DNA from: Bradyrhizobium sediminis
GTDB lineage: Bacteria; Pseudomonadota; Alphaproteobacteria; Rhizobiales; Xanthobacteraceae
DNA: 64,000 nucleotides
NCBI RefSeq assembly: GCF_018736085.1
Contig: NZ_CP076134.1
Coordinates: 5,280,501 to 5,344,500 of the forward strand
Direction: 5' to 3'
The position numbers and the translations under genes are program-made. A model generated the notes under the pieces. That model did not search any database and was not told the DNA's origin. It worked only from the letters and a program-made list of their open reading frames with translations. Of the stretch, positions 1,508 to 19,027 are shown piece by piece. The number at the start of each line of letters is the position of its first letter. Position 1 is the first letter of the stretch.

Positions 1508-3139
1508 CTACCCCGCCGGCGCAAAGGATTCCGCCCGCGCCACGGCCCAGGCGTTGCGGAAGCGCGGATCGCTGGTGCCGTCGATCAACTCGCCCGGGCG
1601 AAGCGACGGATAAAGTTGCGCGAATGACAGTACCTCGGTGGCGGACGATCGCTTCGAGAAATGGATCGGCCGCAAATCCCTTGGATGTTCGAGACCCGCG
1701 GCGGCAAGCAGCTCCGCCAGCGCATGCAGCGTCGCATGATGATAATTGTACACCCGCTCGATCTTGTGCGGCACCACCAGCGCGCGGTTGCGCGTGGGAT
1801 CCTGGGTGGCAACGCCGGTCGGACAGCGGTCGGTATGACAGCTCAGCGACTGGATGCAGCCCAGCGAGAACATGAAGCCGCGCGCCGAATTGCACCAGTC
1901 GGCGCCGATCGCCATGGCGCGCGCCATGTCGAAGGCGGTGGCGATCTTGCCGGAGGCGCCGATCCTGATGCGGTCGCGCGCGTTGATGCCGATCAGCGCG
2001 TTATGGACGAAGTTGACGCCCTCGCGCATCGGCGTACCCAGATGATCCATGAATTCCAGCGGTGCTGCGCCGGTGCCGCCTTCATTGCCGTCAACCACGA
2101 TGAAGTCGGGATAAATTCCGGACTGCAGCATCGCCTTGCAGATCGCGAGGAATTCCCAGGGATGGCCGATGCACAACTTGAATCCGGCCGGCTTGCCGCC
2201 GGACAGCCGGCGCATCTCGGCGATGAACGCCATCATCTGAAGCGGCGTCGAAAACGCACGGTGCGACGCCGGCGAGACGCAATCCTCGTCCATCGCCACG
2301 CCCCGGATCTTGGAAATCTCCTCCGAGACCTTGGCCGCCGGCAGCACGCCGCCATGCCCGGGCTTGGCGCCCTGGCTGATCTTGAGTTCGACCATCTTGA
2401 TCTGGTCTTCGCCCGCGACGCTGGCGAATAATTCGGGGTTGAAACTGCCGTCGCGGTTGCGGCAACCGAAATAGCCTGAGCCGATCTCCCAGATGATGTC
2501 GCCGCCATTTTCGCGGTGATAGGGACTGACGCCGCCCTCGCCGGTATCGTGGGCGAAGCCGCCCTTCTTGGCCCCGGCATTCAGCGCGCGCACTGCGTTC
2601 GGGCTGAGCGCGCCGAAGCTCATCGCGGAAATATTGAAGACGGAAGCCGAATAGGGCTTGGCGCAATCGGGGCCGCCGATGGTGACACGGAATTTCTCGC
2701 TGGCATGGGTCTTGGGCGACATCGAATGATGCATCCATTCGTAGCCCTCGCGATAGACATCCTCCTGGGTGCCGAACGGCCGCTTGTCGAGCTCCATTTT
2801 GGCGCGCTGATAGACCACCGCGCGGGTGTCGCGGCTGAAGGGCATGCCGTCCTTCTCGCTCTCGAAGAAATACTGCCGCATCTCCGGCCTGATCTCTTCG
2901 AGCAGGAAGCGGATATGCGCCGAGATCGGATAATTGCGCAAAACCGCATGGTTCTTCTGCGTGAGATCGCGTAGGCCGAGCAAAGTGAGGGCGCCGAAAA
3001 TCAGGATCGGCACCATGATCAGTTCCCACACCTTGGTATTGGCATCCACGATCCCGATCGTGAGCAGCAAGGCCGTGACGACGGCGCAGATCGTCAGGAC
3101 GATGAAGCGCGGCGAGAACGGAAGCATCAGCGTTTCCAT
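1508..3139 (-). CDS. FMN-binding glutamate synthase family protein
   Basis: A 543-residue protein corresponding to the FMN-barrel central domain of the glutamate synthase large subunit, without the glutamine amidotransferase domain and without the C-terminal GXGXG domain. Two hydrophobic segments (about residues 10-32 and 38-56) suggest a membrane anchor. The FMN/substrate barrel shows GEGGVSPYH and GNEGGTGAAPLEF. The 3Fe-4S site follows the family pattern, with cysteines in SLGCIQSLSCHTDRCPTG near residues 423-440. Such stand-alone proteins are usually annotated as glutamate synthase-like, but their real electron donor and substrate are mostly unknown. The gene is transcribed alone; the upstream 415 bases hold only a decayed repeat. 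Confidence 0.85.
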   Translation of the reverse strand: METLMLPFSPRFIVLTICAVVTALLLTIGIVDANTKVWELIMVPILIFGALTLLGLRDLTQKNHAVLRNYPISAHIRFLLEEIRPEMRQYFFESEKDGMPFSRDTRAVVYQRAKMELDKRPFGTQEDVYREGYEWMHHSMSPKTHASEKFRVTIGGPDCAKPYSASVFNISAMSFGALSPNAVRALNAGAKKGGFAHDTGEGGVSPYHRENGGDIIWEIGSGYFGCRNRDGSFNPELFASVAGEDQIKMVELKISQGAKPGHGGVLPAAKVSEEISKIRGVAMDEDCVSPASHRAFSTPLQMMAFIAEMRRLSGGKPAGFKLCIGHPWEFLAICKAMLQSGIYPDFIVVDGNEGGTGAAPLEFMDHLGTPMREGVNFVHNALIGINARDRIRIGASGKIATAFDMARAMAIGADWCNSARGFMFSLGCIQSLSCHTDRCPTGVATQDPTRNRALVVPHKIERVYNYHHATLHALAELLAAAGLEHPRDLRPIHFSKRSSATEVLSFAQLYPSLRPGELIDGTSDPRFRNAWAVARAESFAPAG

Positions 3140-3554: not shown

Positions 3555-4328
3555 TCAGCGCTCGACGAACGCCTTCTCGATGACGAAATGGCCGGGCTCG
3601 CTGTGGCTGCCTTCGAGAAAGCCGCGTGTCTCGAACATCGTCCGCAGCTCTTCCAGCATGGCGGGGCTGCCGCACATCATGATGCGGTCGGTTTCGATGT
3701 CGAGCGGCGGCTGACCGATGTCGTTGAACAGCTGCTCCGAGGTGATCAGGTCGGTGATGCGGCCGCGGTTGCGGAACGGCTCGCGCGTCACGGTCGGATA
3801 ATACTGCAGCTTCTCGGTCAAGAGCGGTCCGAACAGTTCGTCGTCGCGCAGCTTCGCCACCAGCTCTTCGCCATAGGCGAGTTCGGAGACCTGCCGGCAA
3901 CCGTGCACCAGCACGATGCTCTCGAACCGGTCGTAGACGTCGGGATCCTTGATCAGGCTCGCGAACGGCGCCAGACCCGTTCCGGTCGACAGCAGCAGCA
4001 GCCGCTGGCCCGGGATCAGGTTGTCGGCGACCAGCGTGCCGGTCGCCTTGCGTCCGACCAGGATGGTGTCGCCTTCCCTGATCTTCTGGAGCTTGGAAGT
4101 CAGCGGCCCGTCGGCGACCTTGATCGAGAAGAATTCCAGCGATTCCTCGTGATTGGCGCTCGCCATGCTGTAGGCGCGCAGCAGCGGACGGCCATCAACC
4201 TCCAGGCCGATCATGGCGAATTGCCCGTTCTGGAATCGGAAGCCGGAATTGCGGGTGGCGGTGAAGCTGAAAAGCGTATCGGTCCAGTGCCGGACGGAAA
4301 GAACTTTCTCTCGATGGAATGCGCTCAT
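3555..4328 (-). CDS. fpr: Ferredoxin--NADP+ reductase
   Basis: A 257-residue flavoprotein of the bacterial Fpr type, which exchanges electrons between NADPH and ferredoxin or flavodoxin. Visible motifs are the FAD-binding RAYSMAS (about residues 50-56), the NADP-binding GTGLAPFASLIKDP (about 110-123), CGSPAM and the characteristic C-terminus HFVIEKAFVER. The ATG at 4328 (MSAFHREKV) is preferred over longer in-frame starts because family members begin at this point. Ferredoxin partners could include the FdxA at 61967-62305, though they are far apart. Confidence 0.92.
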   Translation of the reverse strand: MSAFHREKVLSVRHWTDTLFSFTATRNSGFRFQNGQFAMIGLEVDGRPLLRAYSMASANHEESLEFFSIKVADGPLTSKLQKIREGDTILVGRKATGTLVADNLIPGQRLLLLSTGTGLAPFASLIKDPDVYDRFESIVLVHGCRQVSELAYGEELVAKLRDDELFGPLLTEKLQYYPTVTREPFRNRGRITDLITSEQLFNDIGQPPLDIETDRIMMCGSPAMLEELRTMFETRGFLEGSHSEPGHFVIEKAFVER

Positions 4329-4632: not shown

Positions 4633-5667
4633 ATGGAATGCCAGATCGCCGGATATTGCATGCGCGACTTGAGGGATTTTCGAGCGGGAAAGCCGGGCTT
4701 CTATCCGGACCAGACGCTCTATGCCGCCTATGCCTGCGCCGAATTCGGCCTCGCGTTTGCGGATCTCGACGGCGGAACGGGGCTGGTGTTCAGCGTCAGT
4801 TCGTCGACCGGCCGCGTTCATTTCGGCGCCGGGCGCTGCTCATACTATCCGCAGAACAACGCCACCGCATCGACACTGGCGTCGGACAAATACTTCACCA
4901 GCCGGATTCTCGAACAGGCCGGCGTCGCGACGCTGGGCGGCGAATATTTCTTCCTTTGGGACCGCCACCGCGCCCATCGCCCCGCGGGGCATGAGCGCGA
5001 GGATGCGCTGGCGCATTTCCGGAAACTGGGTGGGTCGGCTTTCGTCAAACCCCTGACCGGTTCGCGCGGCGATTTCGCGCAGGCGGTGCATGACGAGGCC
5101 TCGCTGGTGCGATATCTCGGCGAGGTCGCGCCCTATTACGACGCGATCCTGATGCAGCCGGTCGTCGCAGGAACTGAATACAGGGTGTTCCTGCTCGACG
5201 ACGAGGTGCTGTTTGCGGCGCGCAAATATCCGCCCTCGCTGCTGGGCGACGGCGTCAGCCGCATCCGCGATCTCCTGACCGCGCACAATGACGGCTTGCG
5301 ATCGCGCGGCCTTTCGCCGGTTGCCCTGACCAGCGATCGCGGCACCGCGCTCGATGCCGTGCTGGCGAAGGACGAGCGCTGGGACATTCCCGGACGCATG
5401 AACCTGAGCGCGGGCGGCACGATGCGGATCGAACCGTTGCCTTCCGGACCCGCGCTGACGCTGGCGAAGAAGGCCGTGAGCGCGCTCGGACTGCGCGTCG
5501 CCGCCGTCGACCTGTTCACCGATATCGGCGGCGACCCGGGGGCGATGCGGGTGATCGAGGTCAACTCCAACCCGTCGATCCGGCTCTTGGAGCAATCGGA
5601 GCGCGGCGACCTGATCCTGAAAATCTGGCATCACACCTTTTCCGCGATGGGACTACTCGGTGTTTGA
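4633..5667 (+). CDS. ATP-grasp enzyme resembling the cyanophycin synthetase ligase domain
   Basis: A 344-residue protein (from the ATG at 4633; a TTG at 4588 would add 15 residues and ATG 4660 is also possible). It has an N-terminal region without clear matches, then an ATP-grasp fold: SDKYFTSR at 84-91, the ATP-binding lysine strand FVKPLTGSRG at 137-146, RVFLLDDEVLFAARKYPPS around 184-202, NLSAGGT at 257-263 and the metal-binding EVNSNPS at 309-315. RKYPP, NLSAGGT and the order of motifs are closest to cyanophycin synthetase (CphA) and glutathione-type ligases, which join an amino acid to a carboxylate using ATP. Its stop overlaps the start of a Mur-type ligase by 8 bases, so the two are co-translated and probably act together. 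The substrate is unknown. Confidence 0.75.
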   Translation: MECQIAGYCMRDLRDFRAGKPGFYPDQTLYAAYACAEFGLAFADLDGGTGLVFSVSSSTGRVHFGAGRCSYYPQNNATASTLASDKYFTSRILEQAGVATLGGEYFFLWDRHRAHRPAGHEREDALAHFRKLGGSAFVKPLTGSRGDFAQAVHDEASLVRYLGEVAPYYDAILMQPVVAGTEYRVFLLDDEVLFAARKYPPSLLGDGVSRIRDLLTAHNDGLRSRGLSPVALTSDRGTALDAVLAKDERWDIPGRMNLSAGGTMRIEPLPSGPALTLAKKAVSALGLRVAAVDLFTDIGGDPGAMRVIEVNSNPSIRLLEQSERGDLILKIWHHTFSAMGLLGV

Positions 5668-6976
5668 TCTCCCGAAATATGGCGATGGCGTCTGCCTGGC
5701 GCGGATGGCCGAGCTGCTCGAGGCACTGGCGATCGACCGCGAGCGGCTCGCACGCGTCTGCGTCGTCGTCACCGGGTCCAACGGCAAGGGCTCCACCGCG
5801 GCGCTTTGCGCCGGCATCGGCCGCGCCTATGGCCTGCGCACGGGCTTGTTCACCTCGCCGCACCTCTATCGTTTCAACGAGCGGGTTCAGGTCGATGGCG
5901 CTCCGATCGGCGACGGCGATCTGGCGCGGCTGAAACGGCGGATCGAGGCCGCGATCGCCGAGGTCTCACGCCGACGCGGCGAGCAATTCGGCGCCTTCGA
6001 AGCGATGTTTGCGCTGGCCTGCCTGCATTTTCAGGAGTGCGAATGCGAGTTTGCCGCCTTCGAGGCCGGCATCGGCGGGCGCTACGATCCGGTGCGTCTG
6101 ATCGGCGCGCTCGTCGCCTGCGTCACCTCGGTCGATTACGAGCACGTCGAACTGCTCGGCCATTCCCTTGAATTGATCGCCTCCGACAAGAGCGATGCCT
6201 GCGCCGCCGGCGGCACCATCGTTTACGGCGAGAATTGCCGGATGCTGCGGCCGCACCTGATCGAATACAACCGCAATCGCAACATTGCTTCGCTGTTCGT
6301 CCGCGAGCAGATCGGCATCGACAGCGAAGTCGCATCGGCGTCAGGGCAACGGTTCGATTATCAGTTCGGATATTTCGATTTTCGCCTCGTCGAAATCGGC
6401 TTGCTCGGCGCGTTTCAGATCGGTAACGCAGCCATCGCGACCACCCTGTTCCTGCTCTGGCTGCAACGCGCGCACCCCCGCAAGGCTCCCGACCGGATTG
6501 AAGCCGCCGTGCGATCCGGCCTTGGCGCGGTGCGCTGGCCCGGCCGCCTCGAAACGATCAAGCAACACCCGCTCACGGTGATCGACGTCGGCCATACCCC
6601 AGACGGCGTCAGGCAAGCGCTCGCCGGCCTCAAGGCGATCCACGGCGCGGACGGCTGGATTCTGGTCACCGGCGTTTCCCGCGACAAGAAGGCCGAGGAG
6701 ATCGCGGGCGCGCTGGCGCCATCCTTCGACACCATCGTCTGCACAGCAGCCCACCACAAGGGCGCGGACGCGGACCACATCGCAAGCGCGGTGCGCGCGG
6801 CCAATCCGCAGGCCGCCGTTCACATCGCCGCCACCATCGAGGACGCGGTCGGCATCGGCGAAAAACTCGCCGCCGCGCAAAATCGGCAGATCTACGTCGC
6901 CGGCGGGCTGTTCCTAGCGATCGAATACACGGTCGTCGCGCGAGGCGGCCGCGCGGAGGAACTGAAGTTCTTCTGA
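5660..6976 (+). CDS. Mur ligase family protein (FolC-like)
   Basis: A 438-residue protein starting with GTG inside the end of the ATP-grasp gene. It has the Mur/FolC nucleotide loop VTGSNGKGSTAAL (37-49), SPHLYRFNERVQVDG (66-80), EAGIGGRYDP (135-144) in place of the folylpolyglutamate synthase GGRLDATN box, SVDYEHVELLG with a conserved-position lysine in SDKSD (about 157-179), and a C-terminal domain with DVGHTPDGVRQAL (about 310-322). The family ligates an amino acid to an acyl phosphate made from ATP. Sequence layout resembles FolC, but several folate-site positions differ. Pairing with a CphA-like ATP-grasp protein, rather than accD or cell-wall genes, argues against simple folate synthesis. 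Confidence 0.75.
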   Translation: MFDLPKYGDGVCLARMAELLEALAIDRERLARVCVVVTGSNGKGSTAALCAGIGRAYGLRTGLFTSPHLYRFNERVQVDGAPIGDGDLARLKRRIEAAIAEVSRRRGEQFGAFEAMFALACLHFQECECEFAAFEAGIGGRYDPVRLIGALVACVTSVDYEHVELLGHSLELIASDKSDACAAGGTIVYGENCRMLRPHLIEYNRNRNIASLFVREQIGIDSEVASASGQRFDYQFGYFDFRLVEIGLLGAFQIGNAAIATTLFLLWLQRAHPRKAPDRIEAAVRSGLGAVRWPGRLETIKQHPLTVIDVGHTPDGVRQALAGLKAIHGADGWILVTGVSRDKKAEEIAGALAPSFDTIVCTAAHHKGADADHIASAVRAANPQAAVHIAATIEDAVGIGEKLAAAQNRQIYVAGGLFLAIEYTVVARGGRAEELKFF

Positions 6977-7077: not shown

Positions 7078-7143
7078 GTGAGTTTGGTCTAGCGTCCGGC
7101 ACAACGCATCATGTGGGCAACCGCAGGTCAGGAAGGAAACGCC

Positions 7144-8145
<1,002 letters not shown>

Positions 8146-17699: not shown

Positions 17700-18866
17700 T
17701 ACCAACGGCCTCAAGGAATGACCGTCGCCCAGGTTCTGGATGTGATTGAGGCAACGCGCTCGGGGTCGTCGGCGAAGAAGCGCCAAGCAGCGCAGGATTT
17801 GTCGACAATGTCGTCGTAGCTTTCGAACACGGTGATGGCGAGTTTGTTGCCGCGCAGATATTCCCAGACATTCTCGACCGGGTTCAGCTCTGGAGCGTAG
17901 GGCGGCAGGCGGACGAGCGTGATGTTGCTTGGAACGGAGAGACGCGCCGCGACGTGATAGCCTGCGCCATCAATGACGAGCGCAGCATGTGCTCCCGGCG
18001 CAACACGGCGGCCGATTTCGGCCAGATGCATGGACATGGCATCGGTATCGGCGGCGGGCAGGACGAGCGCCGCCGTAGCTCGGCGTTGCGGACAGACGGC
18101 GCCAAAAATGTAAGCCCACTCGTAGCGTTGGTCGCGTGGCGCACGAGGCCGTGTTCCTCGCTTGGCCCAGACGCGGGTCAGCGTCCCTTGCTGGCCGATG
18201 CGGGCTTCGTCCTGGAACCAGATTTCGATGGGTTTGTCTTTCGCGCGGTCGGGGAGTTGCGCCGCGACCGTTGCGGCAAAGTTTTTTTAAAGGCCTCCTG
18301 GGCTTCTTCGTCGGCCTGCGGATGGCGCGGACGCACCGAGAGCCGGCGGTAGCCGAGCTTCGCCAGCACCTTGCCGACCGAGCGTTCATGCAATGCGACG
18401 CCAAAGCGCCGTTGCAACTCGTCGCGCAAATCCACGCGCCGCCAGCGCACTACCCCATGGCGAGCCGGATCGGGCCCGGCCTCAACCAGCTTGGCCAGTT
18501 CGGCTTGCTGCTCCGCTGTGAGTTTTGGCGTGGGACCTGGCGTCTTCAAATCGTGCAGGCCGTCCAAGCCCTCAGCGTTGTAGCGATGCACCCAATCCCG
18601 CAGGGTCTGGCGATCCATGCCGCAGCTCTCCGCCGCCGACTTGCGATCCATCCCATCGAGCACCATCGCAAGAGCCAACATCCGCCGTGCTGCTGAACCA
18701 TCCTTCTCCCGGCCCGCCGCCGCACGAAGGTCCTTTGCCGTCAAATCAAGCCGTAGGATCCTAACCGCTCCACCCATCGATGCTGCTCCTCTCAAAAGCA
18801 AACATCGAGTCAGAGTTTCTCTGATTTGGGAATCCCAAAATGAGTCAAAAGCCGCGGCCGTTGGTA
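17700..18866 (-). mobile_element. IS630-family insertion sequence
   Basis: The left end TACCAACGGCC at 17700-17710 and the right end GGCCGTTGGTA at 18856-18866 are exact inverted copies, beginning with TA as expected for the TA target preference of the IS630/Tc1-mariner group. About 1.17 kb long, with one transposase in two frames on the minus strand. It sits between the stop codon of the CoA ligase and the end of the convergent 3-hydroxybenzoate hydroxylase gene, so it breaks no gene. Confidence 0.85.
17711..18777 (-). CDS. IS630-family transposase (two frames, probable -1 frameshift)
   Basis: The first part (18777 down to about 18287) starts MGGAVRILRLDLTAKDLR and contains a helix-turn-helix N-terminus (SAAESCGMDRQTLRDWVHRY) and a winkled linker. 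The second part (about 18287 down to 17711), in the -1 frame, reads NFAATVAAQLPDRAKDK and then the DDE catalytic region: IEIWFQDEARIGQQG (first Asp), LVIDGAGYH (second Asp) and LPPYAPELNPVENVW (final Glu). The junction is a run of seven A on the coding strand (T-run at 18284-18290). Fusion gives about 355 residues, normal for the family. A true frameshift mutation or a programmed slip both fit; many IS630 elements use the latter. Confidence 0.8.
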
Positions 18867-18895
18867 TAAGACTCATACGCTTCAACAAACTCGAT

Positions 18896-19027
18896 GTCGT
18901 CCCGGCGAACGCCGGGACCCATACGCCGCGGCTTCTCGTCTTGGAAACAGCTGCCCAACGACTTTCGCACAACATCAACAGTTGTGGCTATGGGTCCCGG
19001 CTCTGCGCTTCGCTTGGCCGGGACGAC
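18896..19027. repeat. Palindromic repeat, family B (copy 2)
   Basis: GTCGTCCCGGCGAACGCCGG at the left and GGCCGGGACGAC at the right, with inner GGGACCCATAC / TATGGGTCCC. It lies just outside the IS630 right end and is separate from it. Confidence 0.85.

Follow-up and report, generated by a model that had tools for sequence, protein, structure and literature searches.

Two overlapping amide-ligase genes, conserved as a pair, alternate with a lone ATP-grasp ligase at one chromosomal site in Bradyrhizobium

Cyanophycin synthetase (CphA) combines an ATP-grasp and a Mur-type ligase in one chain, and a 64,000-nucleotide stretch of Bradyrhizobium sediminis DNA (hereafter, the window) encodes ligases of these two kinds in separate, overlapping genes, here termed A and B (Table 1). 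Are they a divided cyanophycin synthetase, a folate enzyme with a chance neighbour, or a ligase system of their own? A sequence-only reading of the window had proposed a split peptide or polymer ligase, the two proteins of which would make an amino-acid conjugate or oligomer. Both the ATP-grasp and the Mur ligase superfamilies are already known, and we recognised no published description of the A–B combination, or of the site exchange reported below, in the literature searched.

Table 1 Features of the A–B site in the window, and positions of the alternative gene A2 in four other loci (L165–L168).
Feature	Position	Strand	Remarks
Glutamate-synthase-like FMN protein gene (named by eye)	1508..3139	-	conserved site neighbour in Nitrobacteraceae
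Divergent reductase gene, ferredoxin-NADP reductase-like (named by eye)	3555..4328	-	one edge of the A–B/A2 site
Gene A, stand-alone ATP-grasp amide ligase of the CphA/GshAB/RimK kind	4633..5667	+	344 aa; alternative start ATG 4660
Overlap of A stop and B start	5660..5667	+	8 bases
Gene B, FolC/FPGS-like Mur ligase, GTG start	5660..6976	+	438 aa; altered acceptor-loop and C-terminal motifs
GGRYDPVR loop of B, replacing GGRLDATN of FolC	6074..6097	+	
Quinone-oxidoreductase-like gene (named by eye)	7111..8145	+	opposite flank of the site
A2, lone diverged ATP-grasp gene	L165 6453-7379; L166 7471-8460; L167 8502-9470; L168 6852-7697		A–B site

The open reading frame of A has possible starts at TTG 4588, ATG 4633 and ATG 4660 and ends at the stop codon 5665–5667; ATG 4660 may be the true start rather than ATG 4633, since the alignment of many relatives to A begins only at residue 10. 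The CphA-type motifs noted in the sequence-only reading are present (RKYPP at 5221–5235, NLSAGGT at 5401–5421), and the top profile for A was the NCBIfam cyanophycin synthetase model, with residues 75–323 aligning to positions 203–455 of 862, the G domain of that enzyme. Lower scores were obtained for NAGGN synthetase (47 bits), the RimK family (41 bits) and GshAB (36 bits), and A stayed under the Pfam gathering scores for the ATP-grasp R2K clade (PF18299, 24.8 versus 26.2 bits; PF14243, 24.6 versus 26.3 bits), labels that are borne by some of its relatives. Source names of A relatives are RimK-, Ddl- or glutathione-synthase-like. For the own genome (5.55 Mb, single contig), the closest named proteins, at 92–95% identity, come from B. 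sediminis and a Bradyrhizobium MAG; no second match to A was detected in it at 1e-10. Residues for ATP and Mg binding and for the acyl phosphate are present: R184, N257, E309 and N311 in all 27 aligned rows, K86 and K139 in 26 of them (one gap), and a basic residue at position 198 throughout (K in 23 rows, R in four).

When A was aligned with CphA1 (7lg5), K139, R184 and N257 matched Lys261, Arg309 and Asn394, and the basic K198 took the place of Arg323 (residue roles in CphA1 as given in the accessible portion of PMC9427784). GshAB in the same alignment also keeps the basic residue and the asparagine, so these residues do not tell the substrate of A. Neither protein reached the CphA equivalog cut-off of 850 bits (A, 75.5; B, 31.8), and a CphA-type N-terminal domain with ATP-grasp and Mur domains in one chain is absent, A being a 344-aa protein and B the product of a separate gene. 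His267 of the CphA P-loop has no equivalent in A (KPLTGS--RGDF versus KPLDGNHGRG; S, R or G positions in 27 rows). The Mur domain of CphA has been placed near MurE/MurF in the accessible portion of PMC11915815; B is not a Mur ligase of that kind and belongs with the FPGS ligases. A quick tree divided 62 ATP-grasp rows, with an SH-aLRT value of 99, into 30 rows of stand-alone proteins, A and A2 among them, and 32 rows comprising all 29 long proteins and three shorter ones. A–B therefore represents a pairing of its own between an ATP-grasp and an FPGS-type ligase. A Mur_ligase_M search of the own genome missed B, and that search is thus no proof of the absence of CphA.

Direct reading of the frames recovered the A/B overlap, the GTG start of B and the EAGIGGRYDP segment, all of which had been described previously from the sequence. 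The FolC-like fold of B was likewise confirmed. B scored 238.4 bits against TIGR01499 (folC), with a subfamily cut-off of 162.65; the nearest structure is an FPGS–folate complex. The catalytic residues K43 (P-loop), K177, D309 and H312 are common to 44/44 B rows and 20/20 FolC rows. At the same time, B departs from the 20 FolCs at five positions that do not vary among them, with R/K for N at 146 in the DATN-type loop (44/44 rows), T/S for N at 313 in the GHN motif (44/44), G for S at 416 in the GSL motif (43/44, one gap), E for D at 161 and G for T at 111. In a tree that contained one Mur row, B and the 20 FolCs lay on separate sides with moderate support (79/94 and 90/83). An authentic accD–folC sits elsewhere in the own genome, and a second, higher-scoring FolC was found in all 14 searched genomes with B. 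The concern that B would cluster with authentic FolC and be the sole folC of its genome was therefore not borne out, the grouping apart having moderate support, and we ruled B out as the cell's folC on the basis of the separate accD–folC, the tree and the replaced residues. Most named B relatives are called folylpolyglutamate/dihydrofolate synthase by their sources, a name against which the present evidence speaks; one (P0122) is called cyanophycin synthetase.

Conservation of the pair in relatives, proposed earlier as a check, held well. A profile scan that took a single genome for each species yielded 44 named loci. In 43 of them, from Alphaproteobacteria and Pseudoalteromonas, B immediately followed A in the same orientation; the sole exception was a Methylococcaceae MAG (L068) with A but no adjacent B. 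Carriers include Bradyrhizobium, Tardiphaga, Rhodopseudomonas, Hyphomicrobiales UR115, Hyphomonadaceae and other alphaproteobacterial MAGs, as well as Pseudoalteromonas peptidolytica and P. piscicida, with identity across loci down to 27–28%. Within Bradyrhizobium, B was beside A in 32/32 A loci fetched (32 of the 41 genomes with A), and a class-wide scan of 385 genomes found the pair in three besides the own genome (G040, G123 and G227). In G123 (L056, 7882–12541), A–B lies directly behind accD and an authentic folC. The first possible start of B was found at the A stop in 31 loci, 29 of them with an overlap of 1, 4 or 8 bases (16, 3 and 10 loci, respectively); the other 13 of the 44 comprised ten with a longer possible B frame, two in which A was missed by the search pattern and one without B. 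Distances among A and among B proteins co-varied (r = 0.97, 43 rows), also among the six deep rows (r = 0.82, Mantel p = 0.004), with L094 omitted from the comparison because A was missed by the search pattern. The pair is old. A without adjacent B occurs in the Methylococcaceae MAG, G1106 (A 42% identical, next to a PEP carboxylase gene named by eye), G004 and G106, which indicates that A is able to function in the absence of this B; the G067 contig stops directly behind A. The genes around A–B vary by lineage and name no pathway, and the three genes that mark the site were all missing from the neighbourhood of the pair in lineages other than Nitrobacteraceae.

These data bear on three alternative explanations. 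If A and B were two independent genes in incidental adjacency, the occurrence of A without B in several lineages would be readily accommodated, but the 43/44 and 32/32 loci, the overlapping frames and a pairing held across classes and sites make this highly improbable. Equally hard to credit is a split cyanophycin synthetase whose product would be a cyanophycin-like polymer: the G-domain profile match of A and the source name of P0122 are in its favour, and we nevertheless ruled it out, given the missing N-terminal domain, the missing P-loop histidine, the kinship of B with FPGS rather than MurE/F and the separation of long fused proteins in the tree. What stands of the split-ligase proposal is that an ATP-grasp and a Mur-type ligase are encoded as a pair; the pair is not a split CphA. 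Finally, A and B could be folate-tail enzymes, with B a specialised folylpolyglutamate synthase and the CphA/RimK-like A attaching to folates either glutamates in a different linkage or some other amino acid. The folC-level score and nearest structure of B are in keeping with such a role, as are the gene order trpB - ... - accD - folC - A - B in G123 and an A relative without B in G004 that overlaps thyA and is followed some 1.5 kb on, in the same orientation, by a DHFR-like gene (both named by eye). Yet the accD–folC and thyA contexts are known from one genome each, no folate gene was recognised at the Nitrobacteraceae site, and the second FolC and the five replaced positions point away from folate; we regard this explanation as unlikely, if less so than the other two.

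In Bradyrhizobium, one chromosomal site holds two alternative ALTERNATIVES, A–B or A2. The latter was first seen in four genomes without A–B (G361, G521, G644 and G688), as another ATP-grasp gene in the same place. Among 195 Bradyrhizobium genomes searched at E 1e-30, A was matched in 41, A2 in 150, both in none and neither in four, so that 191 carried one of the two; the 41 include fragments (G1222, G1132) and G1106, in which A lacks a neighbouring B and the reductase gene is listed on a different contig. Of the four genomes without either, two are assemblies only 75% and 88% complete; the near-complete G1210 and G1120 have an empty site, with no A or A2 beside the reductase gene. The place of the reductase gene was listed for 149 genomes (among them 40/41 with A and 105/150 with A2, leaving one A and 45 A2 genomes unplaced), on another contig in four A genomes and one A2 genome, which fall outside the one-contig test. 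Wherever both genes shared a contig, A (36/36) or A2 (104/104) was the divergent neighbour of the reductase gene, and A–B occupies the same site in Tardiphaga and Rhodopseudomonas. The mutual exclusion, which arises partly because one site is shared, has a hypergeometric value of 6e-38; as this value ignores kinship, the tree count of about six switches is safer. A tree built on reductase-gene DNA from 74 loci requires six changes between the labels A and A2, at least four of them forced by starred branches, although this is one site-linked gene with bootstrap not settled.

A and A2 are about 25% identical and form separate clades; with this identity, and without an A match at 1e-10 in G361, which has A2, a recent derivation of A2 from A is ruled out. 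The A2 frame was open in 40/40 loci fetched (264–386 aa from the first possible start), and many A2 search matches were flagged with an internal stop. No partner ligase was present beside A2 in the four loci read. Outside the genus, A2 was matched in 3/215 class genomes at 1e-12. Two genomes from another genus of Alphaproteobacteria have an A2 relative directly behind an mreB-like gene (by eye; L172, 7540–8505; L173, 7969–8940), and G247 has A-like and A2-like ATP-grasp genes side by side (L060, 9185–11379), another two-ligase arrangement.

The site might also be a swap place for unlike ligase cassettes, as in surface-polysaccharide loci, with A–B and A2 making different things. The constancy of the site in all testable genomes, the six or so switches, the low identity of A and A2 and the solitary state of A2 in the loci read would all suit such a swap, but both alternatives are ATP-grasp ligases, and just two near-complete genomes of the 195 have no A or A2 match and an empty site. 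From this rarity, something useful seems to be kept there, and we consider a swap of unrelated functions rather doubtful.

Carriage by mobile elements was also considered. Phages gave four partial matches to A, at 24–25% identity, and phage cargo was ruled out. Fifty plasmid records matched the Pseudoalteromonas A at <60% identity, with no FolC-like gene annotated beside the match in three regions opened, the plasmid gene tables being incomplete; plasmid cargo was rejected on these grounds. One of 369 gammaproteobacterial genomes matched the Pseudoalteromonas A at 1e-18, within an 884-aa open frame. In Pseudoalteromonas (L067, 6525–11051; L071, 6733–10979), an orphan gene and a weakly phytochelatin synthase-like gene flank A–B in the same orientation. 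The orphan, ahead of A, has three homologues and lacks a Pfam match; the other, after B, has an FCGICSL motif and a phytochelatin synthase score below the cut-off, and its search against the own genome gave nothing credible (E 0.6). Neither neighbour was counted as evidence. Apparent pieces of an insertion-sequence transposase (by eye) lie at 17711–18978 of the window.

The reading that we prefer, and to which we give an even chance, is that A and B are ATP-dependent amide ligases of one small pathway with a non-folate acceptor and a short amino-acid conjugate or oligopeptide as the product, and that A2 probably serves the same need. Made together from overlapping frames, the two enzymes would divide the work: A would convert a free carboxylate, held by R184 in the place of CphA Arg309, to an acyl phosphate and join it to an amine, and B, a FolC-derived ligase, would by FolC chemistry add an amino acid to the carboxylate of a non-folate acceptor, probably a compound made or used by A. 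A2 alone would probably meet the same need as A–B. We infer the joint pathway, the acceptor and the equivalence of A2; the two-protein ligase of the sequence-only reading gains from the pairing and the intact catalytic residues, while its joint pathway and product stay conjectural.

The maintenance of the pair across two classes and its alternation with A2 in almost all genomes of the genus searched point to a metabolite worth having, of which we found no description as far as the literature was searched. Tentatively, and as a possibility rather than an expectation, nearly every Bradyrhizobium may make one undescribed amide-linked metabolite or cofactor through either of two unlike machineries, A with a B of new, non-folate specificity or A2 alone, swapping at one site. 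If true, B would open a functional branch not known so far among the Mur-domain ligases of the FPGS clan. Bradyrhizobium is a large genus of soil and root-nodule bacteria, and its natural A–B, A2 and empty-site strains can serve to find the metabolite.

Among known systems, CphA1 (TIGR02068; 7lg5, 7wae) resembles A–B in combining an ATP-grasp with a Mur-type ligase and in the likeness of its G domain to A, whereas A–B consists of two chains with no N-terminal domain, no His267 equivalent and a Mur partner of the FPGS kind. From FolC/folylpolyglutamate synthase (TIGR01499; 1jbw, 2vor, 1w78), B differs in its motifs (DATN to DPVR, GHN to GHT, GSL to GGL), in having its own tree group and in not being the only folC of the cell. 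A2 is, like A, an ATP-grasp ligase and is encoded at the same site, but has no Mur ligase partner beside it in the four loci read. The glutamate ligases MyfA and MyfB of methylofuran, as described in the accessible portion of PMC8141765, are like A–B two ligases in succession on a small acceptor; unlike A–B, both are ATP-grasp enzymes, with no FolC-like partner.
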